From Sinohyriopsis cumingii (taxonomy: Eukaryota; Mollusca; Bivalvia; Unionida; Unionidae), in the NCBI GenBank assembly GCA_028554795.2, contig CM068839.1, positions 87,751,540-87,815,539 of the forward strand: a DNA stretch of 64,000 nucleotides. Reading direction: 5' to 3'. The position numbers and the translations under genes were made by a program. Below, piece after piece: positions 1-64,000 of the stretch. The notes beneath the pieces are model-generated. The model was given only the letters and a program-made list of their open reading frames with translations, did not search any database and was not told where the DNA came from. Each line of letters opens with the position of its first letter. Within the stretch, counting starts at the first letter, position 1.

Positions 1-713
1 TTTTTAAATATAAATTATTACAAAAAGTGCACGTGTAAGATTTATAAATTCTTTGATTGATCTTTTTATTCTGGCTGTGTCATACAGCAGTTGGATATTT
101 AAAATCAGTTATAATCCTTATTACTGCAGCATATATACTTGTTAATTATTCTGACCAAGCATTATGCTATGAGAATTGCATTGCATAAATGGAAATATAT
201 TGTACTGCAAACCCACTTCCTCACATCCGACACTGTTATCTGTTCAATGAATGTATTCTACAAGTATGCTCAGTGGCATGAATATGTGTTTTCTCTGAAA
301 TGTTTCAAACTTAATGCAAAATAATGGTGAAAGACAAACGTTAATTCAAATAAAGCATCACACACATACACACGAATGCAACAAGTGTATACAGACAGGA
401 TGTCTTTCTTTGTCATACTATTTACACCGATAAATCAACAATAACTACTTAAAAGTGTTTTATTCAATCTTTAAATTCGGAAAAATGTGAGAAATACAAT
501 AAAACTCAAGAAATATTTATTTGTTGGTATTCCGCAGCGTGACAAATGGAACGTAACGCTCAGTGTAATTTCGACAATTTAGAACAAATGTTCATAACCG
601 ACAAAAAGATTTCAAAGAAACTATATATGTAATCTTTACTTTTTCGATCTACAAGTAAATAGCTGCAGGATACAGCTAATGGTGTACATTTCAAAAGGGA
701 AATGGGATGAAAT
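1..713. repeat. AT-rich left block, A type (no gene seen)
   Basis: This gene-free AT-rich stretch opens every A monomer (equivalents begin at each unit start). Compared with C it lacks about 23 net bases just after CATACAG near 101. In C the missing segment is flanked by ACAG on both sides, so a slippage or microhomology deletion is likely. A 61-codon open stretch (139-324, + strand) recurs in every A monomer. It begins with TTG, not ATG, and resembles nothing I recognise, so I do not call it a gene. The origin of this block is unknown. Confidence 0.8.
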
Positions 714-1088
714 TGTCTCGAAGTAATTGTAACCAAAGTGTACTAAAAGATTACATAGCTCGCCTCTTTGAAGTAATTATAAAAAATGTAAAAACCGAGT
801 ATGTATCTCAACAATTTGGTGTAATTTTAACCAGAGTACTAAAGCCGAGTAAATATCTCAACTCGTTGAAGCAACTGTATAACTGTAACAAGAGTAATAA
901 ATGAGTATATATCTCAACTCTCTGAAGTAATTGTAACCAAAGTACAATAAATGATTACATAGCTCATCTCTTAGAGGTAATTGTAACTAGTCTAATAAAC
1001 TATTACATATCTCAGCTCTTCCAAGCAATTGTAAACAAAATGTAATAAATAACAGCTTAGATGACCTCTTCGATGCATGTAATAGTCT
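714..1088 (+). repeat. ~50-bp minisatellite, A, U1 (beta)
   Basis: Eight diverged head-to-tail repeats are seen. The shared GTAATT-like core starts at 723, 773, 821, 871, 927, 977, 1025 and 1075, giving spacings of 50, 48, 50, 56, 50, 48 and 50. The typical unit reads GAAGTAATTGTAACCAAAG, then AATAAATGATTACATA and a GCTCATCTCTT-like end. This copy has AAAAAATGTAAAAACC and TTAGAGG. Repeats at the same rank in different monomers match better than neighbouring repeats. The minisatellite is therefore older than the HOR. Confidence 0.9.
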
Positions 1089-1118
1089 TCAGTTTACATA
1101 ATAAAACTAATTATCATG

Positions 1119-1696
1119 CAGGTCAAAGGTCTTGGTGAGGTCGATGCACATCATGTAGAGTGGTTGACCTTGCTCTGTGTTCTTCTCTTGGAGTTGTCGT
1201 ATGGAAAATATCCTGTCTGTCGTCGACCTGCCTGCATTAAAGCCGCACTGGGATTCCAGGTGCACACTGTCCGCCAGCAACTGCAGCCTGTTGAATATAA
1301 TGCGGGCATACACGTTGCCAACGATGCTCAGAAGCGAGATCAAGCGAGATCCCTCTGTAATTATTACAGTCACTGAGGTCGCCATTGTTTTTGTAAACGG
1401 TATCTCGCGCATGTCTTGGGGATCCGCTCCTTCCTCCCAGCAGAGACAAAGTAGCTCATGCAGTGGCTGAAGCAATGTTTGTTTCCCACGTTCGATAGCT
1501 TCGGGCGGGATGATGTCACTACCTGGTGCTTTGTCGTTTGGGAGGGAGTCGATTGCTTTGCTGAGCTCCTCTAAGGTGGGCACTTTGTCGAACTCATCCA
1601 TGGTGGGCAGTTTTTATGCTGCTAGGGGCCGCATCGGTGACTGACATTTCTTGGGAGTATAGCTCTAGGTAGTGTTCCACCCATCTGGCCATCTGT
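1119..1696 (-). mobile_element. LINE RT fragment, A type, U1
   Basis: Antisense piece of a non-LTR retrotransposon ORF2. The longest frame (1601 down to 1107, 164 codons) shows the pre-RT motif KAPGSD (res 24-29), RT blocks LLSIVGNVYARIIFNRLQ (90-107) and SQCGFNAGRSTTDRIFS (117-133), and motif A as CIDLTKTFD (152-160) with the first catalytic Asp (res 154) intact. It stops four codons later where LINE homology ends. Motifs B-E with the YADD box and the endonuclease are absent. Residues ~66-85 are read out of the family frame, between a frame loss shared by all copies and an A-only 10-base duplication that restores it. The linker is deleted by the A|B junction. The family wording (YKN-GD, CNNYRGISLLS) is widespread in metazoan LINEs. 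I do not assign a clade. Confidence 0.9.
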
Positions 1697-1703
1697 CATA
1701 CTT
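1690..1703. other. Fixed A|B deletion junction
   Basis: LINE sequence reads CCATCTGT to 1696, where C continues with TGCTCACAG. Here it jumps to CATACTTAATGC, which is left-block sequence equivalent to A position ~308. About three bases (CAT) fit neither parent, as in end-joining. Roughly 0.71 kb of monomer end and 0.31 kb of the next monomer start are lost. The identical junction is present at 12699, 18892, 25088, 31282, 35074, 38868, 47463, 53656, 57451 and 63587, so it predates HOR amplification. Confidence 0.93.
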
Positions 1704-2105
1704 AATGCAAAATAATGGTGAAAGACAAACGTTAATTGACATAAATCATCGCACACATACACACGAATGCAACAAGTGTATACAGACATGATGTCTTCCG
1801 TCGTCATACTATATACACCGGCTAATCAACAATAACTACTTAAAAGTGTTTAATTCAATTTTTAAATTCACAAAAAATGTGAGAAATACAATAAAACTCA
1901 AGAAATCTTTATTTGTTGGTATTCCGCAGCGTAACAAATGGAACGTAACGCCCAGTGTAATTTCGACAATTTAGAACAAATCTTCATATGCGACAAAAAG
2001 ATTTCAAAGAAACTATATATGTAATCTTTACTGGTTCGATCTACAAGTAAATAACTCCAGGATTCAGTTTATGGTGTACATTTCAAAAGGGAAATGGGAT
2101 GAAAT
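1697..2105. repeat. AT-rich left block, B type, 5'-truncated
   Basis: B monomers begin directly with CATACTTAATGC and align to A from about position 308 onward, so their first ~0.31 kb is missing. B is recognised by TTCATATGCGAC, AACTCCAGGATTCAG and, in the adjacent tract, GTAAGCAAAG. Equivalents start at 12700, 18893, 25089, 31283, 35075, 38869, 47464, 53657, 57452 and 63588. I see no gene in it. Confidence 0.85.
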
Positions 2106-2480
2106 TATCTCGAAGTAATTGTAAGCAAAGTGTACTAAAAGATTACATAGCTCGCCTCTTTGAAGTAATTATAAACAATGTAATAAACGAGTATGTATCT
2201 CAACTATTTGATGTAATTGAAACCAGAGTATTAAAGCCGAGTAAATATCTCAACTCGTTGAAGTAACTGTATAACTGTAAAAAGAGTAATAAATAAGTAT
2301 ATATCTCAATTCTCTGAAGTAATTGTAACCAAAATACAATAAATGATTACATAGCTCATCTCTTCAAGGTAATTGTAACTAGTCTAATAAACTATTACAT
2401 ATCTCAGCTCTTCCAAGCAATTGTTAACAAAATGTAATAAATAACAGCTTAGATGACCTCTTCGATGCATTTAATAGTCT
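2106..2480 (+). repeat. ~50-bp minisatellite, B, U1
   Basis: B copy with GTAAGCAAAG in repeat 1, TTGAAACCAGAG in repeat 3 and the B variant GCAATTGTTAAC in repeat 7. Confidence 0.88.
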
Positions 2481-2511
2481 TCAGTTTACATAATAAAAAC
2501 TAATTATCATG

Positions 2512-3497
2512 CAGGTCAATGCTCTTGGTGAGTTCAATGAACATCATGTAGAGTGGTTGACCTTGCTCTGTGTTCTTCTCTTGGAGTTGTCGTATGGAAA
2601 AGATCATGTCTGTCGTCGACCTGCCTGCTTTAAAGCCGCACTGGGATTCCAGGTGCACACGGTCCACCAGCAACTGCAGCCTGTTGAGCATAATGCGGGA
2701 ATACACTTTGCCAACGATGCTCAGAAGCGAGATCCCTCTGTAATTATTACAGTTACTGAGGTCGCCATTGTTTTTGTAAACGGTATCTCGCGCATATCTT
2801 GGAGGACCGCTCCTTTCCTTCCAGCAGAGACAAAGTAGCTCATGCAGCAGCTGAAGCAATGTTGGTTTCCCACGTTCGATAGCTTTGGGCGGGATGCTGT
2901 CACTACATGGTGCTTTGTCGTTTGGGACGGAGTCGATTGCTTTGTTGAGCTCCTCTAAGGTGGGCACTTTGTCGAGCTCCTCTATGGTGGGCAGTTTTTA
3001 TGCTGTTAGGGCTGCATCGGTGACTGACATTTCTTGGGAGCATAGCTCTGAGTAGTGTTCCACCCATCTGGCCATCTGTTGCTCACAGTCAGTGATCTCC
3101 TCTCCCGTCAGAGATTTCTGGCGGACGATCCCTTTCACCATAGGGCCTAGAGCCTTCTTGATATCACAGTACATACCTTGGATGTTTCCGGATTCGGCAC
3201 TGCGCTGGAGTCCTTCACATAGTTGTTACCAGTACTCGTTCGCGCACTGTCTAGCGATGTGTTGGGTGTTGCTTCGAGCGCTTCTGAGATCAGCAAGCAT
3301 CCGTTCATTAGGGCATTTTTTGTAAGCTTTGAAGGCTTTTCATTTGTCTTCGATTATTGGTTCTATCCTTGATAGATGTGCGCTGAACTAGTGCCAAACG
3401 TGGCCATGGCTGTGCTGTAGATGACACCCTTCATGGCGCTCCACATGGCTGTGGCATCGTGATCTGGCAGGTCTTGGAGTGCCTGGTCCAGGGCTAG
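2512..3497 (-). mobile_element. LINE linker-RT fragment, B type, U1
   Basis: Reading right to left there are three parts. The first is a linker (LALDQALQDLPDHDATAMW, then YSTAMATFG) with a 22-base B-only deletion near 3391 that removes the region C encodes as ERPSQDWFN. The second is the ALGP-K/RWVEHYSEL region, ending in a stop just before PTIEELDK. The third is the RT start (2967-2500, 155 codons). Motif A reads FIELTKSID, with Glu for the catalytic Asp. VYSRIMLNRL is shared with U8B. Confidence 0.9.
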
Positions 3498-3766
3498 TAT
3501 GAGAATACAAGAGTATATCACAATTATGCTCATGCAGCTCTGAGATTTTTTCAGAGACGTACGAAAATTCAATCAAAATCCAATTAAACATTTTATAATT
3601 TCATTTGTATTAAATGTTCTAATTCGAGGTTATTAAAAGCTTATTACATGAATAAACTGCACAATTTTGCAGGTGCCACATTTTACTTAAATAAAAACAG
3701 ACACCATGAAAAAGGAAAAATCAGCCAAATATATTCATATATTACCAAAACATAATGCAAATAGAC
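3498..3766. repeat. AT-rich right flank, B type
   Basis: This stretch lies between the 5' end of the antisense LINE piece and the next monomer. It contains TTTCATTTGTATTAAATG, AAAAGCTTATTACATG and ACTTAAATAAAAACAG, and ends in ATGCAAATAGAC. Equivalents end at 8576, 14769, 20962, 27158, 40938, 49532 and 59521. The exact LINE/flank boundary is uncertain by tens of bases, and no gene is seen. Confidence 0.75.
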
Positions 3767-4504
3767 TTTTTTTTATATAAATTATTACAAAAAGTGCACA
3801 TGTAAGATTTATAAATTCTTTGGTTGATCTTTTTTATTCTGGCTGTGTCATACAGGAAATGTTTTTTAAACTAAACAGGCATTGGATATTGAAAATCAAT
3901 TATAATCCTTATTATTGCAGCATATATACTTGTCAATTATTCTGGCCAAGCATTATGCCATAAGAATTGCATTGCATAAATGGAAATATATTGTACTGCA
4001 AACCCACTTCCTCACATCCGACCCTGTTATCTGTTCAATGAATGTATTCTACAAGTATCCTCAATGGCATGAATATCGGTTTTCTTTGAAATCTTTCAAA
4101 CTTAATGCAAAATAACGGTGAAAGACAAACGTTAATTCAAATAAAGCATCACACACATACACACGAATGCAACAAGTGTATACAGACATGATGTCTTCCT
4201 TCGTTATACTATATACAAGGGCTGATCAACAATAACTACTTAAAAGTGTTTTATTCAATTGTTAAATTTGTAAAACATTTGAGAAATACAATAAAACCCA
4301 AGAAATTTGTATTTGTTGGTATTCCACAGCGTGACAAATGGAACGTAATTCCCAGTGTAATTTCGACAATTTAGAACAAATCTTCATAACCAACAAAAAG
4401 ATTTCAAAGAAACTATATATGTAATCTTTACTGGTTCGATCTACAAGTAAATAGCTGCAGGATTCAGTTAATGGTGTACATTTCAAAAGGAAATGGGATG
4501 AAAT
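3767..4504. repeat. AT-rich left block, C type (no gene seen)
   Basis: This is the full-length version of the left block. It is marked by GCATTGGATATTG, CAATGGCATGAATATCGG and TTGTAAAACATTTGAG. Equivalents start at 8577, 14770, 20963, 27159, 40939, 49533 and 59522. It probably best preserves the ancestral monomer start, since it carries the segments that A (near 101) and B (first 0.31 kb) lack. I see no convincing gene on either strand. Confidence 0.82.
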
Positions 4505-4879
4505 TATCTCGAAGTAATTGTAACCAAAGTGTTCTAAAAGATTACATAGCTCGCCTCTTTGAAGTAATTATAAACAATGTAATAAACGAGCATGTATCTC
4601 AACTATTTGATGTAATTGAAACCAGAGTATTAAAGCCGAGTAAATATCTCAACTCGTTGAAGTAACTGTATAACTGTAAAAAGAGTAATGAATAAGTATA
4701 TATCTCAATTCTCTGAAGTAATTGTAACCAAAATACAATAAATGATTACATAGCTCATCTCTTCAAGGTAATTGTAACTAGTCTAATAAACTATTACATA
4801 TCTCAGCTCTTCCAAGCAATTGTAAACAAAATGTAATAAATAACAGCTTAGATGACCTCTTCGATGCATTTAATAGTCT
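4505..4879 (+). repeat. ~50-bp minisatellite, C, U1
   Basis: C copy with TGTTCTAAAAG and GTAATGAATAAG, variants shared only with U2C and U8C. Confidence 0.88.
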
Positions 4880-4910
4880 TCAGTTTACATAATAAAAACT
4901 AATTATCATG

Positions 4911-5920
4911 CAGGTCAATGGTCTTGGTGAGTTCAATGAACATCATGTAGAGTGGTTGACCTTGCTCTGTGTTCTTCTCTTGGAGTTGTCGTATGGAAAA
5001 GATCATGTCTGTTGTCGACCTGCCTGCTTTAAAGCCGCACTGGGATTCCAGGTGCACACGGTCCGCCAGCAACTGCAGCCTGTTGAGTATAATGCGGGCA
5101 TACACTTTGCCAACGATGCTCAGAAGCGAGATCCCTCTGTAGTTATTACAGTCACTGAGGTCGCCATTGTTTTTGTAAACGGTATCTCGCGCATATCTTG
5201 GGGGACCGCTCCTTTCCTTCCAGCAGAGACAAAGTAGCTCATGCAGCGGCTGAAGCAATGTTGGTTTCCCACGTTCTATAGCTTTGGGCGGGATGCTGTC
5301 ACTACCTGGTGCTTTGTCGTTTGGGTGGGAGTCGATTGCTTTGCTGAGCTCCTCTAAGGTGGGCACTTTGTCGAGCTCATCCATGGTGGGCAGTTTTTAT
5401 GCTGCTAGGGGCCGCATCGGTGACTAGCATATCCTGGGAGTATAGCTCTGAGTAGTGTTCCACCCATCTGGCCATCTGTTGCTCACAGTCAGTGATCTCC
5501 TCTCCCCTCAGAGATTTCCGGGGAACGGCCCCCTTCACCGTAGGGCCTAGAGCCTTCTTGATACCACAGTACATACCTTGGATGTTTCCGGACTCGGCAG
5601 TGTGCTGGAGTCCTTCACATAGTTGTTACCAGTACTCGTTCGCGCACTGTCTAGCGATTGTGTTGGGTGTTGCTTCGAGCACTTCTGAGATCAGCAAGCG
5701 TCCGTTCATTAAGGCATTTTTTGTAACGTTTGAAGGCTTTTCGTTTGTCTTCGATTATTGGTTCCATCCTTGATAGATGTGCGTTGAACCAGTCCTGGCT
5801 GGGCCGTTCCTTTGTGCCAAACATGGCCATGGCTGTGCTGTAGATTGCACCCTTCATGGCGTTCCACATGGCTGTGGCATCGTGGTCTGGCAGGTCCTGG
5901 AGTGTCTGGTCCAGGGCTAG
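4911..5920 (-). mobile_element. LINE linker-RT fragment, C type, U1 (most complete form)
   Basis: This is the longest LINE form in the array. The linker frame 5995-5651 has DHDATAMWNAMKGAIYSTAM, QDWFNAHLSRMEPIIEDKRK and LADLRSARSNTQH. Next come the frame 5574-5377 (GIKKALGPTVKG, RWVEHYSELYSQ) and the RT frame 5384-4899 (161 codons). RT has KAPGSD 24-29, CNNYRGISLLSIVGK 79-93, QCGFKAGRSTTDMIFS 115-130 and FIELTKTID 149-157, Glu replacing the motif-A Asp at 151. An extra T near 5659 and a one-base shift at the A-run near 5394 separate the frames. The run before GTAACG at 5715 has six T here, so the linker frame stays open through it. No endonuclease and no YADD half. Confidence 0.92.
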
Positions 5921-6190
5921 TATGACAATACAAGAGTATATCACAATTCTACTAGTACAGCTCTGGGATTGTTTCAGAGACGTACGACCATTCAATCAAA
6001 ATGCAATTAAACATTTTATAATTTGATTGGTATTGAATGTTCTAGTTCGAGGTTATCAAAAGCAAATTACATGAAAGAACTGCACAATTCTGCAGGTGCC
6101 ACATTTTACTTATATAAACACATGTACCATGGAAAAGGAAAAAAATAGCCAAATAGATTCATATATTACCAAAACATAATGCAAATAGAC
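5921..6190. repeat. AT-rich right flank, C type
   Basis: This flank is homologous to the B right flank but has TTTGATTGGTATTGAATG, AAAAGCAAATTACATG and ACTTATATAAACACATG. It ends at the unit boundary. Equivalents end at 11000, 17193, 23389, 29583, 33376, 37170, 43362, 45764, 51957, 55752 and 61888, including all hybrids whose right part is C. No gene is seen. Confidence 0.75.
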
Positions 6191-6906
6191 TTTTTTTAAA
6201 CATAAATTATTACAAAAAGTGCACGTGTAAGATTTATAAATTCTTTGATTGATCTTTTTTATTCTGGCTGTGTCATACAGCAGTTGGATATTTAAAATCA
6301 GTTATAATCCTTATTACTGCAGCATATATACTTGTTAATTATTCTGACCAAGCATTATGCTATGAGAATTGCATTGCATAAATGGAAATATATTGTACTG
6401 CAAACCCACTTCCTCACATCCGACCCTGTTATCTGTTCAATGAATGTATTCTACAAGTATGCTCAGTGGCATGAATATGTGTTTTCTCTGAAATGTTTCA
6501 AACTTAATGCAAAATAATGGTGAAAGACAAACGTTAATTCAAATAAAGCATCACACACATACACACGAATGCAACAAGTGTATACAGACAGGATGTCTTT
6601 CTTTGTCATACTATTTACACCGATAAATCAACAATAACTACTTAAAAGTGTTTTATTCAATTTTTAAATTCGGAAAAATGTGAGAAATACAATAAAACTC
6701 AAGAAATATTTATTTGTTGGTATTCCGCAGCGTGACAAATGGAACGTAACGCTCAGTGTAATTTCGACAATTTAGAACAAATGTTCATAACCGACAAAAA
6801 GATTTCAAAGAAACTATATATGTAATCTTTACTTTTTCGATCTACAAGTAAATAGCTGCAGGATTCAGCTAATGGTGTACATTTCAAAAGGGAAATGGGA
6901 TGAAAT

Positions 6907-7281
6907 TGTCTCGAAGTAATTGTAACCAAAGTGTACTAAAAGATTACATAGCTCGCCTCTTTGAAGTAATTATAAACAATGTAATAAACGAGTATGTATC
7001 TCAACAATTTGATGCAATTGTAACCAGAGTACTAAAGCCGAGTAAATATCTCAACTCGTTGAAGCAACTGTATAACTGTAACAAGAGTAATAAATGAGTA
7101 TATATCTCAACTCTCTGAAGTAATTGTAACCAAAGTACAATAAATGATTACATAGCTCATCTCTTCAAGGTAATTGTAACTAGTCTAATAAACTATTACA
7201 TATCTCAGCTCTTCCAAGCAATTGTAAACAAAATGTAATAAATAACAGCTTAGATGACCTCTTCGATGCATTTAATAGTCT
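6907..7281 (+). repeat. ~50-bp minisatellite, A, U2 (alpha)
   Basis: Alpha copy (CTTCAAGG in repeat 6) with GATGCAATTG in repeat 3, shared only with U3A. Confidence 0.88.
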
Positions 7282-7311
7282 TCAGTTTACATAATAAAAC
7301 TAATTATCATG

Positions 7312-8307
7312 CAGGTCAAAGGTCTTGGTGAGGTCGATGAACATCATGTAGAGTGGTTGACCTTGCTCTGTGTTCTTCTCTTGGAGTTGTCGTATGGAAA
7401 AGATCATGTCTGTCGTCGACCTGCCTGCTTTAAAGCCGCACTGGGATTCCAGGTGCACACTGTCCGCCAGCAACTGCAGCCTGTTGAATATAATGCGGGC
7501 ATACACGTTGCCAACGATGCTCAGAAGCGAGATCAAGCGAGATCCCTCTGTAATTATTACAGTTACTGAGGTCGCCATTGTTTTTGTAAACGGTATCTCG
7601 CGCATATCTTGGAGGACCGCTCCTTTCCTCCCAGCAGAGACAAAGTAGCTCATGCAGCAGCTGAAGCAATGTTGGTTTCCCACGTTCGATAGCTTTGGGC
7701 GGGATGCTGTCACTACATGGTGCTTTGTCGTTTGGGACGGAGTCGATTGCTTTGTTGAGCTCCTCTAAGGTGGGCACTTTGTCGAGCTCCTCTATGGTGG
7801 GCAGTTTTTATGCTGTTAGGGCTGCATCGGTGACTGACATTTCTTGGGAGCATAGCTCTGAGTAGTGTTCCACCCATCTGGCCATCTGTTGCTCACAGTC
7901 AGTGATCTCCTCTCCCGTCAGAGATTTCTGGCGGACGATCCCTTTCACCATAGGGCCTAGAGCCTTCTTGATATCACAGTACATACCTTGGATGTTTCCG
8001 GATTCGGCACTGCGCTGGAGTCCTTCACATAGTTGTTACCAGTACTCGTTCGCGCACTGTCTAGCGATGTGTTGGGTGTTGCTTCGAGCGCTTCTGAGAT
8101 CAGCAAGCATCCGTTCATTAGGGCATTTTTTGTAAGCTTTGAAGGCTTTTCATTTGTCTTCGATTATTGGTTCTATCCTTGATAGATGTGCGCTGAACTA
8201 GTGCCAAACGTGGCCATGGCTGTGCTGTAGATGACACCCTTCATGGCGCTCCACATGGCTGTGGCATCGTGATCTGGCAGGTCTTGGAGTGCCTGGTCCA
8301 GGGCTAG
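7312..8307 (-). mobile_element. LINE fragment, A/B hybrid, U2
   Basis: The RT end (low coordinates) is A type with motif A FIDLTKTFD. The rest is B type. It inherits both the A-only 10-base duplication and the B/C-only one-base insertion, so the RT frame that is open in pure A and pure B copies is broken into two overlapping frames (7713-7300 and 7777-7430). It keeps GFKAGRSTTDMIFS, closer to the family pattern than the common A reading GFNAGRSTTDRIFS. Confidence 0.9.
7547..7563. other. A-to-B crossover interval in U2
   Basis: The last A-specific signal is the 10-base duplication ending at about 7546. The first B-specific base is T at 7564 (AGTTACTG rather than AGTCACTG). The switch therefore lies in about 17 bases that A and B share. 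Confidence 0.9.
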
Positions 8308-9314
8308 TATGAGAATACAAGAGTATATCACAATTATGCTCATGCAGCTCTGAGATTTTTTCAGAGACGTACGAAAATTCAATCAAAATCCAATTAAACA
8401 TTTTATAATTTCATTTGTATTAAATGTTCTAATTCGAGGTTATTAAAAGCTTATTACATGAATAAACTGCACAATTTTGCAGGTGCCACATTTTACTTAA
8501 ATAAAAACAGACACCATGAAAAAGGAAAAATCAGCCAAATATATTCATATATTACCAAAACATAATGCAAATAGACTTTTTTTTATATAAATTATTACAA
8601 AAAGTGCACATGTAAGATTTATAAATTCTTTGGTTGATCTTTTTTATTCTGGCTGTGTCATACAGGAAATGTTTTTTAAACTAAACAGGCATTGGATATT
8701 GAAAATCAATTATAATCCTTATTATTGCAGCATATATACTTGTCAATTATTCTGGCCAAGCATTATGCCATAAGAATTGCATTGCATAAATGGAAATATA
8801 TTGTACTGCAAACCCACTTCCTCACATCCGACCCTGTTATCTGTTCAATGAATGTATTCTACAAGTATCCTCAATGGCATGAATATCGGTTTTCTTTGAA
8901 ATCTTTCAAACTTAATGCAAAATAACGGTGAAAGACAAACGTTAATTCAAATAAAGCATCACACACATACACACGAATGCAACAAGTGTATACAGACATG
9001 ATGTCTTCCTTCGTTATACTATATACAAGGGCTGATCAACAATAACTACTTAAAAGTGTTTTATTCAATTGTTAAATTTGTAAAACATTTGAGAAATACA
9101 ATAAAACCCAAGAAATTTGTATTTGTTGGTATTCCACAGCGTGACAAATGGAACGTAATTCCCAGTGTAATTTCGACAATTTAGAACAAATCTTCATAAC
9201 CAACAAAAAGATTTCAAAGAAACTATATATGTAATCTTTACTGGTTCGATCTACAAGTAAATAGCTGCAGGATTCAGTTAATGGTGTACATTTCAAAAGG
9301 AAATGGGATGAAAT

Positions 9315-9689
9315 TATCTCGAAGTAATTGTAACCAAAGTGTTCTAAAAGATTACATAGCTCGCCTCTTTGAAGTAATTATAAACAATGTAATAAACGAG
9401 CATGTATCTCAACTATTTGATGTAATTGAAACCAGAGTATTAAAGCCGAGTAAATATCTCAACTCGTTGAAGTAACTGTATAACTGTAAAAAGAGTAATG
9501 AATAAGTATATATCTCAATTCTCTGAAGTAATTGTAACCAAAATACAATAAATGATTACATAGCTCATCTCTTCAAGGTAATTGTAACTAGTCTAATAAA
9601 CTATTACATATCTCAGCTCTTCCAAGCAATTGTAAACAAAATGTAATAAATAACAGCTTAGATGACCTCTTCGATGCATTTAATAGTCT
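9315..9689 (+). repeat. ~50-bp minisatellite, C, U2
   Basis: Matches the U1C copy at offset 4810 with no difference that I noticed. Confidence 0.88.
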
Positions 9690-9720
9690 TCAGTTTACAT
9701 AATAAAAACTAATTATCATG

Positions 9721-10730
9721 CAGGTCAATGGTCTTGGTGAGTTCAATGAACATCATGTAGAGTGGTTGACCTTGCTCTGTGTTCTTCTCTTGGAGTTGTC
9801 GTATGGAAAAGATCATGTCTGTTGTCGACCTGCCTGCTTTAAAGCCGCACTGGGATTCCAGGTGCACACGGTCCGCCAGCAACTGCAGCCTGTTGAGTAT
9901 AATGCGGGCATACACTTTGCCAACGATGCTCAGAAGCGAGATCCCTCTGTAGTTATTACAGTCACTGAGGTCGCCATTGTTTTTGTAAACGGTATCTCGC
10001 GCATATCTTGGGGGACCGCTCCTTTCCTTCCAGCAGAGACAAAGTAGCTCATGCAGCGGCTGAAGCAATGTTGGTTTCCCACGTTCTATAGCTTTGGGCG
10101 GGATGCTGTCACTACCTGGTGCTTTGTCGTTTGGGTGGGAGTCGATTGCTTTGCTGAGCTCCTCTAAGGTGGGCACTTTGTCGAGCTCATCCATGGTGGG
10201 CAGTTTTTATGCTGCTAGGGGCCGCATCGGTGACTAGCATATCCTGGGAGTATAGCTCTGAGTAGTGTTCCACCCATCTGGCCATCTGTTGCTCACAGTC
10301 AGTGATCTCCTCTCCCCTCAGAGATTTCCGGGGAACGGCCCCCTTCACCGTAGGGCCTAGAGCCTTCTTGATACCACAGTACATACCTTGGATGTTTCCG
10401 GACTCGGCAGTGTGCTGGAGTCCTTCACATAGTTGTTACCAGTACTCGTTCGCGCACTGTCTAGCGATTGTGTTGGGTGTTGCTTCGAGCACTTCTGAGA
10501 TCAGCAAGCGTCCGTTCATTAAGGCATTTTTTGTAACGTTTGAAGGCTTTTCGTTTGTCTTCGATTATTGGTTCCATCCTTGATAGATGTGCGTTGAACC
10601 AGTCCTGGCTGGGCCGTTCCTTTGTGCCAAACATGGCCATGGCTGTGCTGTAGATTGCACCCTTCATGGCGTTCCACATGGCTGTGGCATCGTGGTCTGG
10701 CAGGTCCTGGAGTGTCTGGTCCAGGGCTAG
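9721..10730 (-). mobile_element. LINE linker-RT fragment, C type, U2
   Basis: Matches U1C at offset 4810, including the otherwise private GTTGTCGACC at 9824 and the six-T run at 10524. RT frame 10194-9709 is open for 161 codons. Confidence 0.91.
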
Positions 10731-12091: not shown

Positions 12092-12121
12092 TCAGTTTAC
12101 ATAATAAAACTAATTATCATG

Positions 12122-13483: not shown

Positions 13484-13514
13484 TCAGTTTACATAATAAA
13501 AACTAATTATCATG

Positions 13515-48246: not shown

Positions 48247-48277
48247 TCAGTTTACATAATAAAAACTAATTATCATG

Positions 48278-50645: not shown

Positions 50646-50676
50646 TCAGTTTACATAATAAAAACTAATTATCATG

Positions 50677-53048: not shown

Positions 53049-53078
53049 TCAGTTTACATAATAAAACTAATTATCATG

Positions 53079-53656: not shown

Positions 53657-54064
53657 CATACTTAATGCAAAATAATGGTGAAAGACAAACGTTAATTCAA
53701 ATAAAGCATCGCACACATACACACGAATGCAACAAGTGTATACAGACATGATGTCTTCCGTCGTCATACTATATACACCGGCTAATCAACAATAACTACT
53801 TAAAAGTGTTTAATTCACTTTTTAAATTCACAAAAAATGTGAGAAATACAATAAAACTCAAGAAATCTTTATTTGTTGGTATTCCGCAGCGTAACAAATG
53901 GAACGTAACGCCCAGTGTAATTTCGACAATTTAGAACAAATCTTCATATGCGACAAAAAGATTTCAAAGAAACTATATATGTAATCTTTACTGGTTCGAT
54001 CTACAAGTAAATAACTCCAGGATTCAGTTTATGGTGTACATTTCAAAAGGAAATGGGATGAAAT

Positions 54065-54439
54065 TATCTCGAAGTAATTGTAAGCAAAGTGTACTAAAAG
54101 ATTACATAGCTCGCCTCTTTGAAGTAATTATAAACAATGTAATAAACGAGTATGTATCTCAACTATTTGATGTAATTGAAACCAGAGTATTAAAGCCGAG
54201 TAAATATCTCAACTCGTTGAAGTAACTGTATAACTGTAAAAAGAGTAATAAATAAGTATATATCTCAATTCTCTGAAGTAATTGTAACCAAAATACAATA
54301 AATGATTACATAGCTCATCTCTTCAAGGTAATTGTAACTAGTCTAATAAACTATTACATATCTCAGCTCTTCCAAGCAATTGTAAACAAAATGTAATAAA
54401 TAACAGCTTAGATGACCTCTTCGATGCATTTAATAGTCT
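54065..54439 (+). repeat. ~50-bp minisatellite, B/C switch region, U11
   Basis: Begins B type (GTAAGCAAAG, GAGTATG). The rest is common to B and C. Confidence 0.86.
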
Positions 54440-54624
54440 TCAGTTTACATAATAAAAACTAATTATCATGCAGGTCAATGGTCTTGGTGAGTTCAATGAA
54501 CATCATGTAGAGTGGTTGACCTTGCTCTGTGTTCTTCTCTTGGAGTTGTCGTGTGGAAAAGATCATGTCTGTCGTCGACCTGCCTGCTTTAAAGCCGCAC
54601 TGGGATTCCAGGTGCACACGGTCC
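54152..54624. other. B-to-C crossover interval in U11
   Basis: B-specific CGAGTATG ends at 54151 and C-specific GTCCGCC starts to be diagnostic at 54625. It overlaps the equivalent interval of U7, but flanking variants differ (CACTTTTTAAATT on the left here, GTCCGTCC on the right). Confidence 0.85.
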
Positions 54625-55482
54625 GCCAGCAACTGCCAGCCTGTTGACTATAATGCGGGCATACACTTTGCCAACGATGCTCAGAAGCGAGATCCCTCTG
54701 TAGTTATTACAGTCACTGAGGTCGCCATTGTTTTTGTAAACGGTATCTCGCGCATATCTTGGGGGACCGCTCCTTTCCTTCCAGCAGAGACAAAGTAGCT
54801 CATGCAGCGGCTGAAGCAATGTTGGTTTCCCACGTTCTATAGCTTTGGGCGGGATGCTGTCACTACCTGGTGCTTTGTCGTTTGGGTGGGAGTCGATTGC
54901 TTTGCTGAGCTCCTCTAAGGTGGGCACTTTGTCGAGCTCATCCATGGTGGGCAGTTTTTATGCTGCTAGGGGCCGCATCGGTGACTAGCATATCCTGGGA
55001 GTATAGCTCTGAGTAGTGTTCCACCCATCTGGCCATCTGTTGCTCACAGTCAGTGATCTCCTCTCCCCTCAGAGATTTCCGGGGAACGGCCCCTTTCACC
55101 GTAGGGCCTAGAGCCTTCTTGATACCACAGTACATACCTTGGATGTTTCCGGACTCGGCAGTGTGCTGGAGTCCTTCACATAGTTGTTACCAGTACTCGT
55201 TCGCGCACTGTCTAGCGATTGTGTTGGGTGTTGCTTCGAGCACTTCTGAGATCAGCAAGCGTCCGTCCATTAAGGCATTTTTTTGTAATGTTTGAAGGCT
55301 TTTCGTTTGTCTTCGATTATTGGTTCCATCCTTGATAGATGTGCGTTGAACCAGTCCTGGCTGGGCCGTTCCTTTTTGCCAAACATGGCCATGGCTGTGC
55401 TGTAGATTGCACCCTTCATGGCGTTCCACATGGCTGTGGCATCGTGGTCTGGCAGGTCCTGGAGTGTCTGGTCCAGGGCTAG
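54471..55482 (-). mobile_element. LINE fragment, B/C hybrid, U11
   Basis: C type through the visible LINE part. A one-base insertion near 54638 shifts the RT frame, so the open stretch (54945-54589) is 118 codons and loses the block with QCGF and motif A. Confidence 0.89.
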
Positions 55483-56468
55483 TATGACAATACAAGAGTA
55501 TATCACAATTCTACTAGTGCAGCTCTGAGATTGTTTCAGAGACGTACGACCATTCAATCAAAATGCAATTAAACATTTTATAATTTGATTGGTATTGAAT
55601 GTTCTAGTTCGAGGTTATCAAAAGCAAATTACATGAAAGAACTGCACAATTCTGCAGGTGCCACATTTTACTTATATAAACACATGTACCATGGAAAAGG
55701 AAAAAAATAGCCAAATAGATTCATATATTACCAAAACATAATGCAAATAGACTTTTTTTAAATATAAATTATTACAAAAAGTGCACGTGTAAGATTTATA
55801 AATTCTTTGATTGATCTTTTTTATTCTGGCTGTGTCATACAGCAGTTGGATATTTAAAATCAGTTATAATCCTTATTACTGCAGCATATATACTTGTTAA
55901 TTATTCTGACCAAGCATTATGCTATGAGAATTGCATTGCATAAATGGAAATATATTGTACTGCAAACCCACTTCCTCACATCCGACCCTGTTATCTGTTC
56001 AATGAATGTATTCTACAAGTATGCTCAGTGGCATGAATATGTGTTTTCTCTGAAATGTTTCAAACTTAATGCAAAATAATGGTGAAAGACAAACGTTAAT
56101 TCAAATAAAGCATCACACACATACACACGAATGCAACAAGTGTATACAGACAGGATGTCTTTCTTTGTCATACTATTTACACCGATAAATCAACAATAAC
56201 TACTTAAAAGTGTTTTATTCAATTTTTAAATTCGGAAAAATGTGAGAAATACAATAAAACTCAAGAAATATTTATTTGTTGGTATTCCGCAGCGTGACAA
56301 ATGGAACGTAACGCTCAGTGTAATTTCGACAATTTAGAACAAATGTTCATAACCGACAAAAAGATTTCAAAGAAACTATATATGTAATCTTTACTGGTTC
56401 GATCTACAAGTAAATAGCTGCAGGATTCAGCTAATGGTGTACATTTCAAAAGGGAAATGGGATGAAAT

Positions 56469-56843
56469 TGTCTCGAAGTAATTGTAACCAAAGTGTACTA
56501 AAAGATTACATAGCTCGCCTCTTTGAAGTAATTATAAACAATGTAATAAACGAGTATGTATCTCAACAATTTGATGTAATTGTAACCAGAGTACTAAAGC
56601 CGAGTAAATATCTCAACTCGTTGAAGCAACTGTATAACTGTAACAAGAGTAATAAATGAGTATATATCTCAACTCTCTGAAGTAATTGTAACCAAAGTAC
56701 AATAAATGATTACATAGCTCATCTCTTAGAGGTAATTGTAACTAGTCTAATAAACTATTACATATCTCAGCTCTTCCAAGCAATTGTAAACAAAATGTAA
56801 TAAATAACAGCTTATATGACCTCTTCGATGCATTTAATAGTCT
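56469..56843 (+). repeat. ~50-bp minisatellite, A, U12 (gamma)
   Basis: Gamma copy, TTAGAGG plus GCTTATATGACC. Confidence 0.88.
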
Positions 56844-56873
56844 TCAGTTTACATAATAAAACTAATTATCATG

Positions 56874-57451
56874 CAGGTCAAAGGTCTTGGTGAGGTCGAT
56901 GAACATCATGTAGAGTGGTTGACCTTGCTCTGTGTTCTTCTCTTGGAGTTGTCGTATGGAAAATATCCTGTCTGTCGTCGACCTGCCTGCATTAAAGCCG
57001 CACTGGGATTCCAGGTGCACACTGTCCGCCAGCAACTGCAGCCTGTTGAATATAATGCGGGCATACACGTTGCCAACGATGCTCAGAAGCGAGATCAAGC
57101 GAGATCCCTCTGTAATTATTACAGTCACTGAGGTCGCCATTGTTTTTGTAAACGGTATCTCGCGCATGTCTTGGGGATCCGCTCCTTCCTCCCAGCAGAG
57201 ACAAAGTAGCTCATGCAGTGGCTGAAGCAATGTTTGTTTCTCACGTTCGATAGCTTCGGGCGGGATGATGTCACTACCTGGTGCTTTGTCGTTTGGGAGG
57301 GAGTCAATTGCTTTGCTGAGCTCCTCTAAGGTGGGCACTTTGTTGAGCTCGTCCATGGTTAGCAGTTTTTATGCTGCTAGGGGCCGCATCGGTGACTGAC
57401 ATTTCTTGGGAGTATAGCTCTAGGTAGTGTTCCACCCATCTGGCCATCTGT
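56874..57451 (-). mobile_element. LINE RT fragment, A type, U12
   Basis: Frame 57356-56862, 164 codons, FIDLTKTFD, GNVYARIIF. It looks like the gamma consensus, with no private change noticed. Confidence 0.9.
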
Positions 57452-57860
57452 CATACTTAATGCAAAATAATGGTGAAAGACAAACGTTAATTCAAATAAA
57501 GCATCGCACACATACACACGAATGCAACAAGTGTATACAGACATGATGTCTTCCGTCGTCATACTATATACACCGGCTAATCAACAATAACTACTTAAAA
57601 GTGTTTAATTCAATTTTTAAATTCACAAAAAATGTGAGAAATACAATAAAACTCAAGAAATCTTTATTTGTTGGTATTCCGCAGCGTAACAAATGGAACG
57701 TAACGCCCAGTGTAATTTCGACAATTTAGAACAAATCTTCATATGCGACAAAAAGATTTCAAAGAAACTATATATGTAATCTTTACTGGTTCGATCTACA
57801 AGTAAATAACTCCAGGATTCAGTTTATGGTGTACATTTCAAAAGGGAAATGGGATGAAAT

Positions 57861-58235
57861 TATCTCGAAGTAATTGTAAGCAAAGTGTACTAAAAGATTA
57901 CATAGCTCGCCTCTTTGAAGTAATTATAAACAATGTAATAAACGAGTATGTATCTCAACTATTTGATGTCATTGAAACCAGAGTATTAAAGCCGAGTAAA
58001 TATCTCAACTCGTTGAAGTAACTGTATAACTGTAAAAAGAGTAATAAATAAGTATATATCTCAATTCTCTGAAGTAATTGTAACCAAAATACAATAAATG
58101 ATTACATAGCTCATCTCTTCAAGGTAATTGTAACTAGTCTAATAAACTATTACATATCTCAGCTCTTCCAAGCAATTGTTAACAAAATGTAATAAATAAC
58201 AGCTTAGATGACCTCTTCGATGCATTTAATAGTCT
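57861..58235 (+). repeat. ~50-bp minisatellite, B, U12
   Basis: B copy with GTTAAC in repeat 7 and private GATGTCATTG in repeat 3. C' of the same unit shares that change. Confidence 0.88.
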
Positions 58236-58266
58236 TCAGTTTACATAATAAAAACTAATTATCATG

Positions 58267-59252
58267 CAGGTCAATGGTCTTGGTGAGTTCAATGAACATC
58301 ATGTAGAGTGGTTGACCTTGCTCTGTGTTCTTCTCTTGGAGTTGTCGTATGGAAAAGATCATGTCTGTCGTCGACCTGCCTGCTTTAAAGCCGCACTGGG
58401 ATTCCAGGTGCACATGGTCCACCAGCAACTGCAGCCTGTTGAGTATAATGCGGGAATACACTTTGCCAACGATGCTCAGAAGCGAGATCCCTCTGTAATT
58501 ATTACAGTTACTGAGGTCGCCATTCTTTTTGTAAACGGTATCTCGCGCATATCTTGGAGGACCGCTCCTTTCCTCCCAGCAGAGACAAAGTAGCTCATGC
58601 AGCAGCTGAAGCAATGTTGGTTTCCCACGTTCGATAGCTTTGGGCGGGATGCTGTCACTACATTGTGCTTTGTCGTTTGGGGCGGAGTCGATTGCTTTGT
58701 TGAGCTCCTCTAAGGTGGGCACTTTGTCGAGCTCCTCTATGGTGGGCAGTTTTTATGCTGCTAGGGCTGCATCGGTGACTGACATTTCTTGGGAGCATAG
58801 CTCTGAGTAGTGTTCCACCCATCTGGCCATCTGTTGCTCGCAGTCAGTGATCTCCTCTCCCGTCAGAGATTTCTGGCGGACGATCCCTTTCACCATAGGG
58901 CCTAGAGCCTTCTTGATATCACAGTACATACCTTGGATGTTTCCGGATTCGGCACTGCGCTGGAGTCCTTCACATAGTTGTTACCAGTACTCGTTCGCGC
59001 ACTGTCTAGCGATGTGTTGGGTGTTGCTTCGAGCGCTTCTGACATCAGCAAGCATCCGTTCATTAGGGCATTTTTTGTAAGCTTTGAAGGCTTTTCATTT
59101 GTCTTCGATTATTGGTTCTATCCTTGATAGATGTGCGCTGAACTAGTGCCAAACGTGGCCATGGCTGTGCTGTAGATGACACCCTTCATGGCGCTCCACA
59201 TGACTGTGGCATCGTGATCTGGCAGGTCTTGGAGTGCCTGGTCCAGGGCTAG
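58267..59252 (-). mobile_element. LINE linker-RT fragment, B type, U12
   Basis: RT frame 58722-58255 with private VYKKNGDLSN and VDHVHLES. SAPNDKAQCSD is shared with U6. It has the B-only linker deletion. Confidence 0.9.
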
Positions 59253-60009
59253 TATGAGAATACAAGAGTATATCACAATTATGCTCATGCAGCTCTGAGA
59301 TTTTTTCAGAGACGTACGAAAATTCAATCAAAATCCAATTAAACATTTTATAATATCATTTGTATTAAATGTTCTAATTCGAGGTTATTAAAAGCTTATT
59401 ACATGAATAAACTGTACAATTTTGCAGGTGCCACATTTTACTTAAATAAAAACAGACACCATGAAAAAGGAAAAATCAGCCAAATATATTCATATATTAC
59501 CAAAACATAATGCAAATAGACTTTTTTTATATAAATTATTACAAAAAGTGCACATGTAAGATTTATAAATTCTTTGGTTGATCTTTTTTATTCTGGCTGT
59601 GTCATACAGGAAATGTTTTTTAAACTAAACAGGCATTGGATATTGAAAATCAATTATAATCCTTATTATTGCAGCATATATACTTGTCAATTATTCTGGC
59701 CAAGCATTATGCTATAAGAATTGCATTGCATAAATGGAAATATATTGTACTGCAAACCCACTTCCTCACATCCGACCCTGTTATCTGTTCAATGAATGTA
59801 TTCTACAAGTATCCTCAATGGCATGAATATCGGTTTTCTTTGACATGTTTCAAACTTAATGCAAAATAATGGTGAAAGACAAACGTTAATTCAAATAAAG
59901 CATCACACACATACACACGAATGCAACAAGTGTATACAGACATGATGTCTTCCTTCGTCATTCTATATACACCGGCTGATCAACAATAACTACTTAAAAG
60001 TGTTTTATT

Positions 60010-60710
60010 CAATTGTTAAATTTGTAAAACATTTGAGAAATACAATAACACCCAAGCAATTTGTATTTGTTGGTATTCCACAGCGTGACAAATGGAACGT
60101 AATTCCCAGTGTAATTTCGACAATTTAGAACAAATCTTCATAACCAACAACAAGATTTCAAAGAAACTATATATGTAATCTTTACTGGTTCGATCTACAA
60201 GTAAATAGCTGCAGGATTCAGTTAATGGTGTACATTTCAAAAGGGAAATGGCATGAGAATGTCTCGAAGTAATTGCAACCAAAGTGTACTAAAAGATCAC
60301 ATAGCTCGCCTCTTTGAAGTAATTCTAAACAATGTAATAAACAAGTACGTATCTCAACTATTTGATGTCATTGAAACCAGAGTACTAAAGCCGAGTAAAT
60401 ATCTCAACTCGGTGAAGTAATTGTAACCAAAGTACAATAAATGATTACATAGCTCATCTCTTCAAGGTAATGGTAACTAGTCTAATAAACTATTACATAT
60501 CTCAGCTCTTCCAAGCAATTGTAAACAAAATGTAATAAATAACAGCTTAGATCACCTCTACGATGCATTTAATAGTCTTCAATTTACATAATAAAAACTA
60601 ATTATCATGCAGGTCAAAGGTCTTGGTGATTTCGATGAACATCATGTAGAGTGGTTGACCTTGCTCTGTGTTCTTCTCTTGGAGTTGTCGTATGAAAAAA
60701 TCCTGTCTGT
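60010..60710. repeat. Highly diverged tract inside C' of U12
   Basis: Private bases cluster here: AACACCCAAGC, AACAACAAGAT, GGCATGAGAATG, AAAGATCACAT, ATTCTAAAC, CAAGTACGTATC, GGTAATGGTAAC, AGATCACCTCTACG and GTATGAAAAAATCC. To the right, normal C sequence resumes. The LINE start reads like A (CAAAGGTC, TTCGATGAAC), but the preceding AATAAAAACTAATT is B/C-like. It may be a patch of an older or fourth monomer type. Confidence 0.85.
60260..60578 (+). repeat. ~50-bp minisatellite, C', U12, seven repeats
   Basis: This copy has seven repeats where all others have eight. The 56-base interval containing CTGTATAACTG is absent and CTCGGTGAAGTAATTG joins directly. It is either a one-repeat contraction or a survivor of the state before that interval expanded. 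Base changes are dense throughout. Confidence 0.87.
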
Positions 60711-61618
60711 CGTCGACCTGCCTGCTTTAAAGCCGCACTGGGATTCCAGGTGCACACGGTCCGCCAGCAACTGCAGCCTGTTGAGTATAATGCGGGCATA
60801 CACTTTGCCAACGATGCTCAGAAGCGAGATCCCTCTGTAGTTATTACAGTCACTGAGGTCGCCATTGTTTTTGTAAACGGTATCTCGCGCATATCTTGGG
60901 GGACCGCTCCTTTCCTTCCAGCAGAGACAAAGTAGCTCATGCAGCGGCTGAAGCAATGTTGGTTTCCCACGTTCTATAGCTTTGGGCGGGATGCTGTCAC
61001 TACCTGGTGCTTTGTCGTTTGGGTGGGAGTCGATTGCTTTGCTGAGCTCCTCTAAGGTGGGCACTTTGTCGAGCTCATCCATGGTGGGCAGTTTTTATGC
61101 TGCTAGGGGCCGCATCGGTGGCTAGCATATCCTGGGAGTATAGCTCTGAGTAGTGTTCCACCCATCTGGCCATCTGTTGCTCACAGTCAGTGATCTCCTC
61201 TCCCCTCAGAGATTTCCGGGGAACGGCCCCTTTCACCGTAGGGCCTAGAGCCTTCTTGATACCACAATACATACCTTGGATGTTTCCGGACTCGGCAGTG
61301 TGCTGGAGTCCTTCACATAGTTGTTACCAGTACTCGTTCGCGCACTGTCTAGCGATGTGTTGGGTGTTGCTTCGAGCACTTCTGAGATCAGCAAGCGTCC
61401 GTCCATTAAGGCATTTTTTTGTAACGTTTGAAGGCTTTTCGTTTGTCTTCGATTATTGGTTCCATCCTTGATAGATGTGCGTTGAACCAGTCCTGGCTGG
61501 GCCGTTCCTTTTTGCCAAACATGGCCATGGCTGTGCTGTAGATTGCACCCTTCATGGCGTTCCACATGGCTGTGGCATCGTGGTCTGGCAGGTCCTGGAG
61601 TGTCTGGTCCAGGGCTAG
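60610..61618 (-). mobile_element. LINE linker-RT fragment, diverged C', U12
   Basis: The right part is C type with seven T but lacks the extra T that other C copies have in GCGATTGTG (here GCGATGTG at 61355, as in B). A one-base loss near 60695 (ATGAAAAAATCC) breaks the frame after RIFS, leaving 61082-60642 open. On the low-coordinate side it belongs to the diverged tract. Confidence 0.89.
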
Positions 61619-62604
61619 TATGACAATACAAGAGTATATCACAATTCTACTAGTGCAGCTCTGAGATTGTTTCAGAGACGTACGACCATTCAATCAAAAT
61701 GCAATTAAACATTTTATAATTTGATTGGTATTGAATGTTCTAGTTCGAGGTTATCAAAAGCAAATTACATGAAAGAACTGCACAATTCTGCAGGTGCCAC
61801 ATTTTACTTATATAAACACATGTACCATGGAAAAGGAAAAAAATAGCCAAATAGATTCATATATTACCAAAACATAATGCAAATAGACTTTTTTTAAATA
61901 TAAATTATTACAAAAAGTGCACGTGTAAGATTTATAAATTCTTTGATTGATCTTTTTTATTCTGGCTGTGTCATACAGCAGTTGGATATTTAAAATCAGT
62001 TATAATCCTTATTACTGCAGCATATATACTTGTTAATTATTCTGACCAAGCATTATGCTATGAGAATTGCATTGCATAAATGGAAATATATTGTACTGCA
62101 AACCCACTTCCTCACATCCGACCCTGTTATCTGTTCAATGAATGTATTCTACAAGTATGCTCAGTGGCATGAATATGTGTTTTCTCTGAAATGTTTCAAA
62201 CTTAATGCAAAATAATGGTGAAAGACAAACGTTAATTCAAATAAAGCATCACACACATACACACGAATGCAACAAGTGTATACAGACAGGATGTCTTTCT
62301 TTGTCATACTATTTACACCGATAAATCAACAATAACTACTTAAAAGTGTTTTATTCAATTTTTAAATTCGGAAAAATGTGAGAAATAGAATAAAACTCAA
62401 GAAATATTTATTTGTTGGTATTCCGCAGCGTGACAAATGGAACGTAACGCTCAGTGTAATTTCGACAATTTAGAACAAATGTTCATAACCGACAAAAAGA
62501 TTTCAAAGAAACTATATATGTAATCTTTACTGGTTCGATCTACAAGTAAATAGCTGCAGGATTCAGCTAATGGTGTACATTTCAAAAGGGAAATGGGATG
62601 AAAT

Positions 62605-62979
62605 TGTCTCGAAGTAATTGTAACCAAAGTGTACTAAAAGATTACATAGCTCGCCTCTTTGAAGTAATTATAAACAATGTAATAAACGAGTATGTATCTC
62701 AACAATTTGATGTAATTGTAACCAGAGTACTAAAGCCGAGTAAATATCTCAACTCGTTGAAGCAACTGTATAACTGTAACAAGAGTAATAAATGAGTATA
62801 TATCTCAACTCTCTGAAGTAATTGTAACCAAAGTACAATAAATGATTACATAGCTCATCTCTTAGAGGTAATTGTAACTAGTCTAATAAACTATTACATA
62901 TCTCAGCTCTTCCAAGCAATTGTAAACAAAATGTAATAAATAACAGCTTAGATGACCTCTTCGATGCATTTAATAGTCT
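62605..62979 (+). repeat. ~50-bp minisatellite, A, U13
   Basis: TTAGAGG with GCTTAGATGACC. The left block has a private GAAATAGAATAAAAC. Confidence 0.88.
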
Positions 62980-63009
62980 TCAGTTTACATAATAAAACTA
63001 ATTATCATG

Positions 63010-63587
63010 CAGGTCAAAGGTCTTGGTGAGGTCGATGAACATCATGTAGAGTGGTTGACCTTGCTCTGTGTTCTTCTCTTGGAGTTGTCGTATGGAAAAT
63101 ATCCTGTCTGTCGTCGACCTGCCTGCATTAAAGCCGCACTGGGATTCCAGGTGCACACTGTCCGCCAGCAACTGCAGCCTGTTGAATATAATGCGGGCAT
63201 ACACGTTGCCAACGATGCTCAGAAGCGAGATCAAGCGAGATCCCTCTGTAATTATTACAGTCACTGAGGTCGCCATTGTTTTTGTAAACGGTATCTCGCG
63301 CATGTCTTGGGGATCCGCTCCTTCCTCCCAGCAGAGACAAAGTAGCTCATGCAGTGGCTGAAGCAATGTTTGTTTCTCACGTTCGATAGCTTCGGGCGGG
63401 ATGATGTCACTACCTGGTGCTTTGTCGTTTGGGAGGGAGTCAATTGCTTTGCTGAGCTCCTCTAAGGTGGGCACTTTGTCGAGCTCATCCATGGTTAGCA
63501 GTTTTTATGCTGCTAGGGGCCGCATCGGTGACTGACATTTCTTGGGAGTATAGCTCTAGGTAGTGTTCCACCCATCTGGCCATCTGT
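63010..63587 (-). mobile_element. LINE RT fragment, A type, U13
   Basis: Frame 63492-62998, 164 codons, DELDKVPTL with LPNDKAPGSD and FIDLTKTFD. Last LINE piece in the window. Confidence 0.9.
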
Positions 63588-64000
63588 CATACTTAATGCA
63601 AAATAATGGTGAAAGACAAACGTTAATTCAAATAAAGCATCGCACACATACACACGAATGCAACAAGTGTATACAGACATGATGTCTTCCGTCGTCATAC
63701 TATATACACCGGCTAATCAACAATAACTACTTAAAAGTGTTTAATTCAATTTTTAAATTCACAAAAAATGTGAGAAATACAATAAAACTCAAGAAATCTT
63801 TATTTGTTGGTATTCCGCAGCGTAACAAATGGAACGTAACGCCCAGTGTAATTTCGACAATTTAGAACAAATCTTCATATGCGACAAAAAGATTTCAAAG
63901 AAACTATATATGTAATCTTTACTGGTTCGATCTACAAGTAAATAACTCCAGGATTCAGTTTATGGTGTACATTTCAAAAGGGAAATGGGATGAAATTATC

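Follow-up and report, generated by a model that had tools for sequence, protein, structure and literature searches.

A probable LINE-containing trimeric higher-order satellite array in a 64-kb stretch of the Sinohyriopsis cumingii genome

A 64,000-bp stretch of the genome of the bivalve Sinohyriopsis cumingii (NCBI GenBank assembly GCA_028554795.2, contig CM068839.1, positions 87,751,540 to 87,815,539, forward strand; the whole stretch is referred to here as the window) was analyzed, and very probably represents one uninterrupted, non-coding satellite (macrosatellite) array with a trimeric higher-order repeat (HOR) structure. Analysis of self-matches identified 6,193 bp as the commonest spacing in the window. 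A 6,194-bp consensus HOR, built from the three regular HORs of the window, painted it from end to end on the plus strand; all 2,555 150-mers matched this consensus, with a mean best identity of 99.4% (minimum 78.7%) and an identity of at least 95% in 99.1% of them. Painting by one consensus HOR indicates that no foreign insert of at least 150 bp and no array edge lies inside the window; both window ends fall within the array, which thus spans at least 64 kb, and its units join at one fixed phase. These data bear out the original prediction that a higher-order satellite derived from a long interspersed nuclear element (LINE), with a period of about 6.19 kb, fills the window, both the HOR logic and a reverse transcriptase (RT) fragment being present.

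1 to 64000, unstranded: continuous head-to-tail HOR satellite array (self-match period and consensus painting)

Landmarks within the repeat defined 31 unit starts. These delimit 30 complete monomers; the window opens with an incomplete Z monomer on the left and closes with an incomplete X monomer on the right. Comparison of the monomers from anchor to anchor revealed three types, X, Y and Z, that were 98-100% identical within a type and 91-95% identical between types, the combination of divergence between types and homogeneity within them that characterizes HOR satellites; the three diverged types proposed earlier were thus recovered. Ten complete monomers were of type X (1,392-1,393 bp), seven of type Y (2,398-2,401 bp, with one of 2,343 bp) and nine of type Z (2,401-2,403 bp), and four were recombinant (2,400-2,409 bp). 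The expectation that every type is built of the same blocks did not hold, as type X lacks approximately 1.0 kb running from the LINE linker into an AT-rich block, including most of the former and more than half of the latter. Both borders of this missing segment share TGT in the Y/Z sequence, which would fit a microhomology-joined deletion in X.

When read by monomer body, the order of the 31 units, the last X being partial, was XYZ YZ XYZ XYZ XYZ XZ XZ XYZ Z XYZ XZ XYZ X. The X>Y>Z>X order was kept in 25 of 30 adjacent steps, compared with a mean of 10.2 and a maximum of 21 in 100,000 shuffles (all 31 units, with recombinants counted by body type). The predicted A-B-C order is therefore real but not locked, since it is broken five times. 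Register was kept at all five breaks, as in variant HORs that arise by in-register monomer loss, and each break may be read as the loss of one monomer or a pair. The units of the array are as follows.

1 to 1106, plus strand: partial monomer of type Z, tail only (painting)
1107 to 2499, plus strand: monomer X; unit 435-518 is a Z-like tract
2500 to 4898, plus strand: monomer Y
4899 to 7299, plus strand: monomer Z
7300 to 9708, plus strand: break 1, recombinant monomer after Z; mostly X-like head to unit ~243, then Y body
9709 to 12109, plus strand: monomer Z
12110 to 30692, plus strand: nine consecutive monomers, XYZ XYZ XYZ, forming three regular HORs
30693 to 32084, plus strand: monomer X; unit 473-518 is a Z-like tract
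32085 to 34484, plus strand: break 2, recombinant monomer with Y head and Z body, switching between unit 640 and 664
34485 to 35877, plus strand: monomer X; unit 435-518 is a Z-like tract
35878 to 38278, plus strand: break 3, monomer Z straight after X, Y missing
38279 to 44471, plus strand: monomers X (with a Z-like tract), Y and Z
44472 to 46873, plus strand: break 4, recombinant monomer after Z; X head (unit 20-36), then Z body
46874 to 53066, plus strand: monomers X, Y and Z
53067 to 54458, plus strand: monomer X
54459 to 56861, plus strand: break 5, monomer Z straight after X, Y missing
56862 to 58254, plus strand: monomer X
58255 to 60597, plus strand: monomer Y of 2,343 bp, in which the minisatellite block is changed and shortened and 20 diagnostic sites are mismatched
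60598 to 62997, plus strand: monomer Z in regular order, its short head partly X-like
62998 to 64000, plus strand: partial monomer X (painting)

The breakpoints were then placed within the unit. The monomer at 7300 switched from X-like to Y near unit 250, its head being itself a mosaic that was Y/Z-like at 102-129, and the monomer at 44472 switched from X to Z at unit 36-102. For both X-to-Z junctions, the breakpoint could be confined to the interval from X position ~2091 to position ~166 in the unit that follows. The units at these two junctions differed from each other at 14/1,392 and 23/2,401 bases, and the two junctions may be one event that was copied. When we asked whether the X tails preceding the X-to-Z junctions were Y-type, the allele carried by these tails was found as well in two other X monomers that precede Y heads. 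A hotspot of order-breaking junctions was considered, with four of the five lying between unit ~2091 and ~254 of the next unit and the fifth at 640-664, but is not claimed. The initial P values (0.013 or 0.002) used zone fractions of 0.24 or 0.14 that were too small for the X-to-Z junctions, and a value worked out by hand for a zone of ~560 bp ranged from ~0.01 (2.4-kb target) to 0.09 (1.39-kb target); the pattern is, moreover, post hoc, and the X-to-Z junctions may share one origin. Smaller exchanges were also evident. A Z-like tract, starting at unit 435 or 473 and ending at 518, was carried by 4/10 complete X monomers (starts 1107, 30693, 34485 and 38279). These tracts and the X-like head at 60598 look like gene conversion, and in this X subgroup the conversion is likely shared by descent.

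The longest exact repeat in the window comprised 3,418 bp, identical between 2821-6238 and 7631-11048 at a shift of 4,810 bp, and is probably the most recent duplication. Near-exact long copies of this kind are also what would be expected if an assembler had expanded or shuffled a shorter array and so produced apparent breaks in order. We consider such an artefact extremely improbable: in 26 of the 30 complete units at least one diagnostic site departed from the consensus of the type painted there, nine consecutive monomers were regular, and three of the breaks had distinct breakpoints, with the qualifier that the two X-to-Z junctions may count as one.

We next describe the internal organization of the monomer, counted from its LINE end. 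The RT fragment, in antisense, occupied unit 0-498 (49% G+C) and was followed by a LINE linker at 498-1080 (48%), an AT-rich block at 1080 to ~1960 (29%) and a minisatellite at ~2010-2399 (29%). The border at unit 1080 was placed by the shift in G+C. With this outer border, the LINE-like share (RT block plus linker) amounted to ~1.06 of 2.4 kb in Y and Z and 0.58 of 1.39 kb in X. One Z monomer serves as an example.

15904 to 16398, minus strand: LINE RT fragment, 165 codons open, from near the start of RVT_1 to motif A (profile match)
16399 to 16980, minus strand: LINE linker, N-terminal of the RT, in other frames (outer end placed from the G+C shift)
16981 to 17860, unstranded: AT-rich block, ~29% G+C
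17917 to 18302, unstranded: seven-unit minisatellite and monomer end

The antisense fragment matched the Pfam family RVT_1 in one example of each of the three types (E = 7.5e-8 to 3.5e-7). The match covered profile positions 5-77 or 8-80 of 205 and ended at motif A, so that the antisense fragment of the original prediction stands while its description as half an RT does not; approximately a third is present. In addition, the Z frame matched LINE-1 ORF2p chain residues 447-593 (E = 1.8e-5), showing homology to the RT of LINE open reading frame 2 (ORF2), and LINE linker sequence was present N-terminal of the RT piece in Y and Z. In Y, homology extended from ~14291 down to 13497 (coordinates worked out by hand) against a longer RT frame of non-long terminal repeat (non-LTR) type on contig L001, with 274 aligned positions, 29% identity and E = 5e-33, and ended just past motif A. 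That contig is filed as an Oligoflexales metagenome-assembled genome, carries a 962-residue frame with a non-LTR-type RT (L001:1874-2695), and may be eukaryotic DNA in the bin. At motif A, the translated end of the fragment reads FIDLTKTFD in X, whereas Y and Z have FIELTKTID, so that the motif-A aspartate is replaced in the latter two. The fragment may be RTE-like in appearance. No complete RT with endonuclease was found, RVT_1 being covered over only ~5-80/205 and nine further frames containing no Pfam family above the cut-off; the weak Pfam matches in these Y and Z monomer frames all fell below it and were rejected. The AT-rich block contained no Rfam family at the gathering score and, in the scanned Y frames, no Pfam family above the cut-off; an Rfam match to mir-52 (12400-19000) was rejected as sub-threshold (19.4 bits, gathering score 50). 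The term LINE-derived thus fits the RT block and linker, but no family was found in Rfam or Pfam for the rest of the monomer.

The minisatellite, predicted as a 50-bp repeat, was confirmed: each consensus monomer has seven units of 48-56 bp, and the seventh continues into the end of the monomer. Its units were 68-78% alike within a block (TRF rows of 48-50 bp), while the block as a whole was 96.7-98.4% alike across types. As the units within a block are less alike than the block is across types, the minisatellite is older than the types.

To compare divergence and polymorphism between blocks, 26 of the 30 complete monomers were used for diversity, leaving out the recombinants at 7300, 32085, 44472 and 60598, and 25 for the polymorphism count, which additionally left out the monomer at 58255; P values for the block comparisons are nominal, since the copies are related. 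Between types, the minisatellite differed less than the rest of the monomer for X-Y (4/389 versus 65/992, P = 3e-6), X-Z (10/388 versus 59/993, P = 0.009) and Y-Z (9/388 versus 127/1986, P = 8e-4). Within types, polymorphic columns numbered 26/389 (6.7%) in the minisatellite, 30/858 (3.5%) in the AT-rich block, 22/583 (3.8%) in the linker and 42/498 in the RT block. The ratio of fixed to polymorphic sites was 8:26 in the minisatellite and 19:42 in the RT block, compared with 110:52 in the linker and AT-rich block combined (P = 3.8e-6 and 9e-7). Since types differ little from each other here while polymorphism is not low, the pattern speaks for homogenization between types in the past rather than constraint. 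Minor alleles common to another type were found at 15/42 sites in the RT block, 3/22 in the linker, 5/30 in the AT-rich block and 1/26 in the minisatellite, a distribution that supports recent exchange in the RT block but not in the minisatellite, where any exchange would be older.

These block comparisons bear on whether the open frame or the minisatellite might be kept by selection, as protein, RNA or binding sites, in a functional macrosatellite. An antisense open frame of 155-164 amino acids was present in 27/31 units, and the minisatellite was the least diverged block between types, as for X-Y above. On the N side, dN (nonsynonymous) and dS (synonymous divergence) were 0.106/0.077 for X-Y, 0.074/0.136 for X-Z and 0.058/0.025 for Y-Z, and on the motif-A side 0.054/0.042, 0.042/0.042 and 0.012/0, respectively, with few changes and scatter in both sets. 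The N-side X-Z value, one of seven comparisons, is thus the one with dN below dS; in the other five piecewise comparisons dN was similar to or greater than dS. Over 165 codons, Y and Z differed by 3 synonymous and 11 nonsynonymous changes, so that dN (0.029) equalled dS (0.028), with low power from 14 changes. The RT block of X also carried a 10-bp insertion and a 1-bp deletion, and the unreduced polymorphism of the minisatellite favours homogenization over constraint. Overall, the RT fragment appears to bear no consistent sign, at low power, of the purifying selection expected of a D4Z4-like macrosatellite with a coding unit, and we regard a selected macrosatellite as very unlikely. A working RT was rejected because the later motifs are absent, X carries indels and no signal of selection was seen.

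An account of a non-coding satellite would begin where a decayed internal fragment of a non-LTR ORF2, comprising linker and RT to motif A, adjoined AT-rich DNA and a seven-unit minisatellite of ~50 bp. The founder composite of ~2.4 kb would have been duplicated in tandem, its copies drifting ~6% apart into the three types, and X would have lost the ~1.0 kb by which it now differs. An X-Y-Z trimer would then have been amplified and homogenized by unequal crossing-over and gene conversion to the 98-100% likeness observed, with later in-register exchanges deleting single monomers or a pair to give the variant HORs whose mosaics and junctions are described above. Such an array would behave as a passive, selfishly expanding block, its RT fragment making no working enzyme. 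The RT homology in each type and the existence of LINE-related tandem families, for example mouse TR-L1 as summarized in PMC3218096, could instead suggest that a transposable element, or a non-autonomous derivative of one, makes up the 2.4-kb unit and that the array arose by nested or tandem insertion. However, tandem insertion would not give the fixed joining phase, the three-type order and the in-register type switches, and the LINE piece is internal and lacks the later RT motifs; insertion is therefore a very improbable source of the array.

Some points weigh against the satellite account as set out here. The proposed origin and the direction of its steps are deduced from a single window, an assembly error is conceivable though improbable, and the dN/dS tests draw on a small number of changes and give scattered values. 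In the minisatellite, with its single shared minor allele among 26, exchange would be old or the low divergence would have another cause. We also considered a more specific proposal, that the array is a centromeric or heterochromatic satellite whose minisatellite and adjoining RT end would act as an exchange hub that drives homogenization of the kilobase monomers. HOR order would then come from a single block prone to recombination and not from unequal crossing-over spread uniformly; this is conceivable but doubtful.

The array was compared with known satellites. Alpha-satellite monomers measure ~171 bp, a size not found here, where complete monomers were 1,392-2,409 bp. As in alphoid HORs, the monomers are diverged and in set order, HOR copies are homogenized and variant HORs arise by monomer loss; unlike them, the monomers are 1.4-2.4 kb long and carry a LINE fragment. 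The likeness drawn in the original prediction therefore stands for organization (diverged types, homogenized copies and in-register breaks), with no claim of homology, while the novelty it implied is weak. The CENP-B core had no match on either strand of the window; at up to 4 mismatches the CENP-B box gave 30 minus-strand matches, approximately one per monomer, which is near chance for one 2.4-kb unit by a hand-worked estimate. None of four telomere motifs matched in the window.

Satellites that contain part of a LINE ORF2 have been described, including PROsat (Phodopus), Pvc20 (harbour seal) and HinfI/SCR1 (chicken) in reviews (PMC9659126, PMC6947457) and TR-L1 in a survey of mouse tandem repeats (PMC3218096). 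These resemble the present array in being tandem and carrying ORF2 sequence; compared by description, they differ in having a reported L1 or CR1 parentage, and the excerpts of these reports mention neither a three-type HOR nor a ~50-bp minisatellite. The pericentric satellite 2D8 of Solanum, according to the excerpt of PMC8122249, is a 5.9-kb dimer of diverged ~3-kb monomers with differing AT content; it shares kilobase diverged monomers in a HOR with the present array, but is dimeric, from a plant and homologous to a ribosomal DNA spacer. The Solanum Sobo, potato centromeric and rye B-chromosome satellites, cited in part of a Vicia faba paper (PMC5895790), have monomers of 0.9-5.4 kb, most of them retrotransposon-similar or complex; they share kilobase monomers, and a three-type HOR is unmentioned in that part. 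The maize repeats CRM1TR and CRM4TR, in summary descriptions, are retrotransposon-derived tandem repeats for which illegitimate recombination followed by growth through gene conversion has been proposed; unlike the present units, they come from the long terminal repeat and untranslated region of an LTR retrotransposon and not from a LINE ORF2. By analogy, the process proposed for CRM1TR could give the picture seen in this array. The exact combination of a trimer, a LINE RT and an internal minisatellite was not met among the titles and abstract starts listed from the open-licence literature, compared by description rather than by sequence; satellites derived from ORF2, monomers of kilobase length and a dimeric HOR on that scale have already been published.

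The sequence collections searched for relatives comprised prokaryotes, phages, plasmids and viral contigs. In IMG/VR, the RT protein gave 5 pattern matches, of which 0 were confirmed, and an exact 35-base minisatellite pattern gave 0 matches; the DNA of a Z monomer had no match in phages. One plasmid record encoded a distant RT (33%), and 44 pattern matches in GTDB contigs yielded 5 distant RT loci (26-41%). The non-LTR RT and the satellite organization themselves point to a eukaryotic origin of the array.

Taken together, the array looks like a clean new case of a known kind of repeat evolution, and not like a system of a new kind. It illustrates neatly that a HOR can form without monomers of nucleosome size. 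Likely stages of satellite birth, namely a composite founder, divergence, internal deletion, trimer amplification and in-register loss, are all legible within these 64 kb. Finally, the presence in one monomer of blocks with few fixed differences (minisatellite and RT) and blocks with many (linker and AT-rich) could serve for testing at which point unequal exchange begins.

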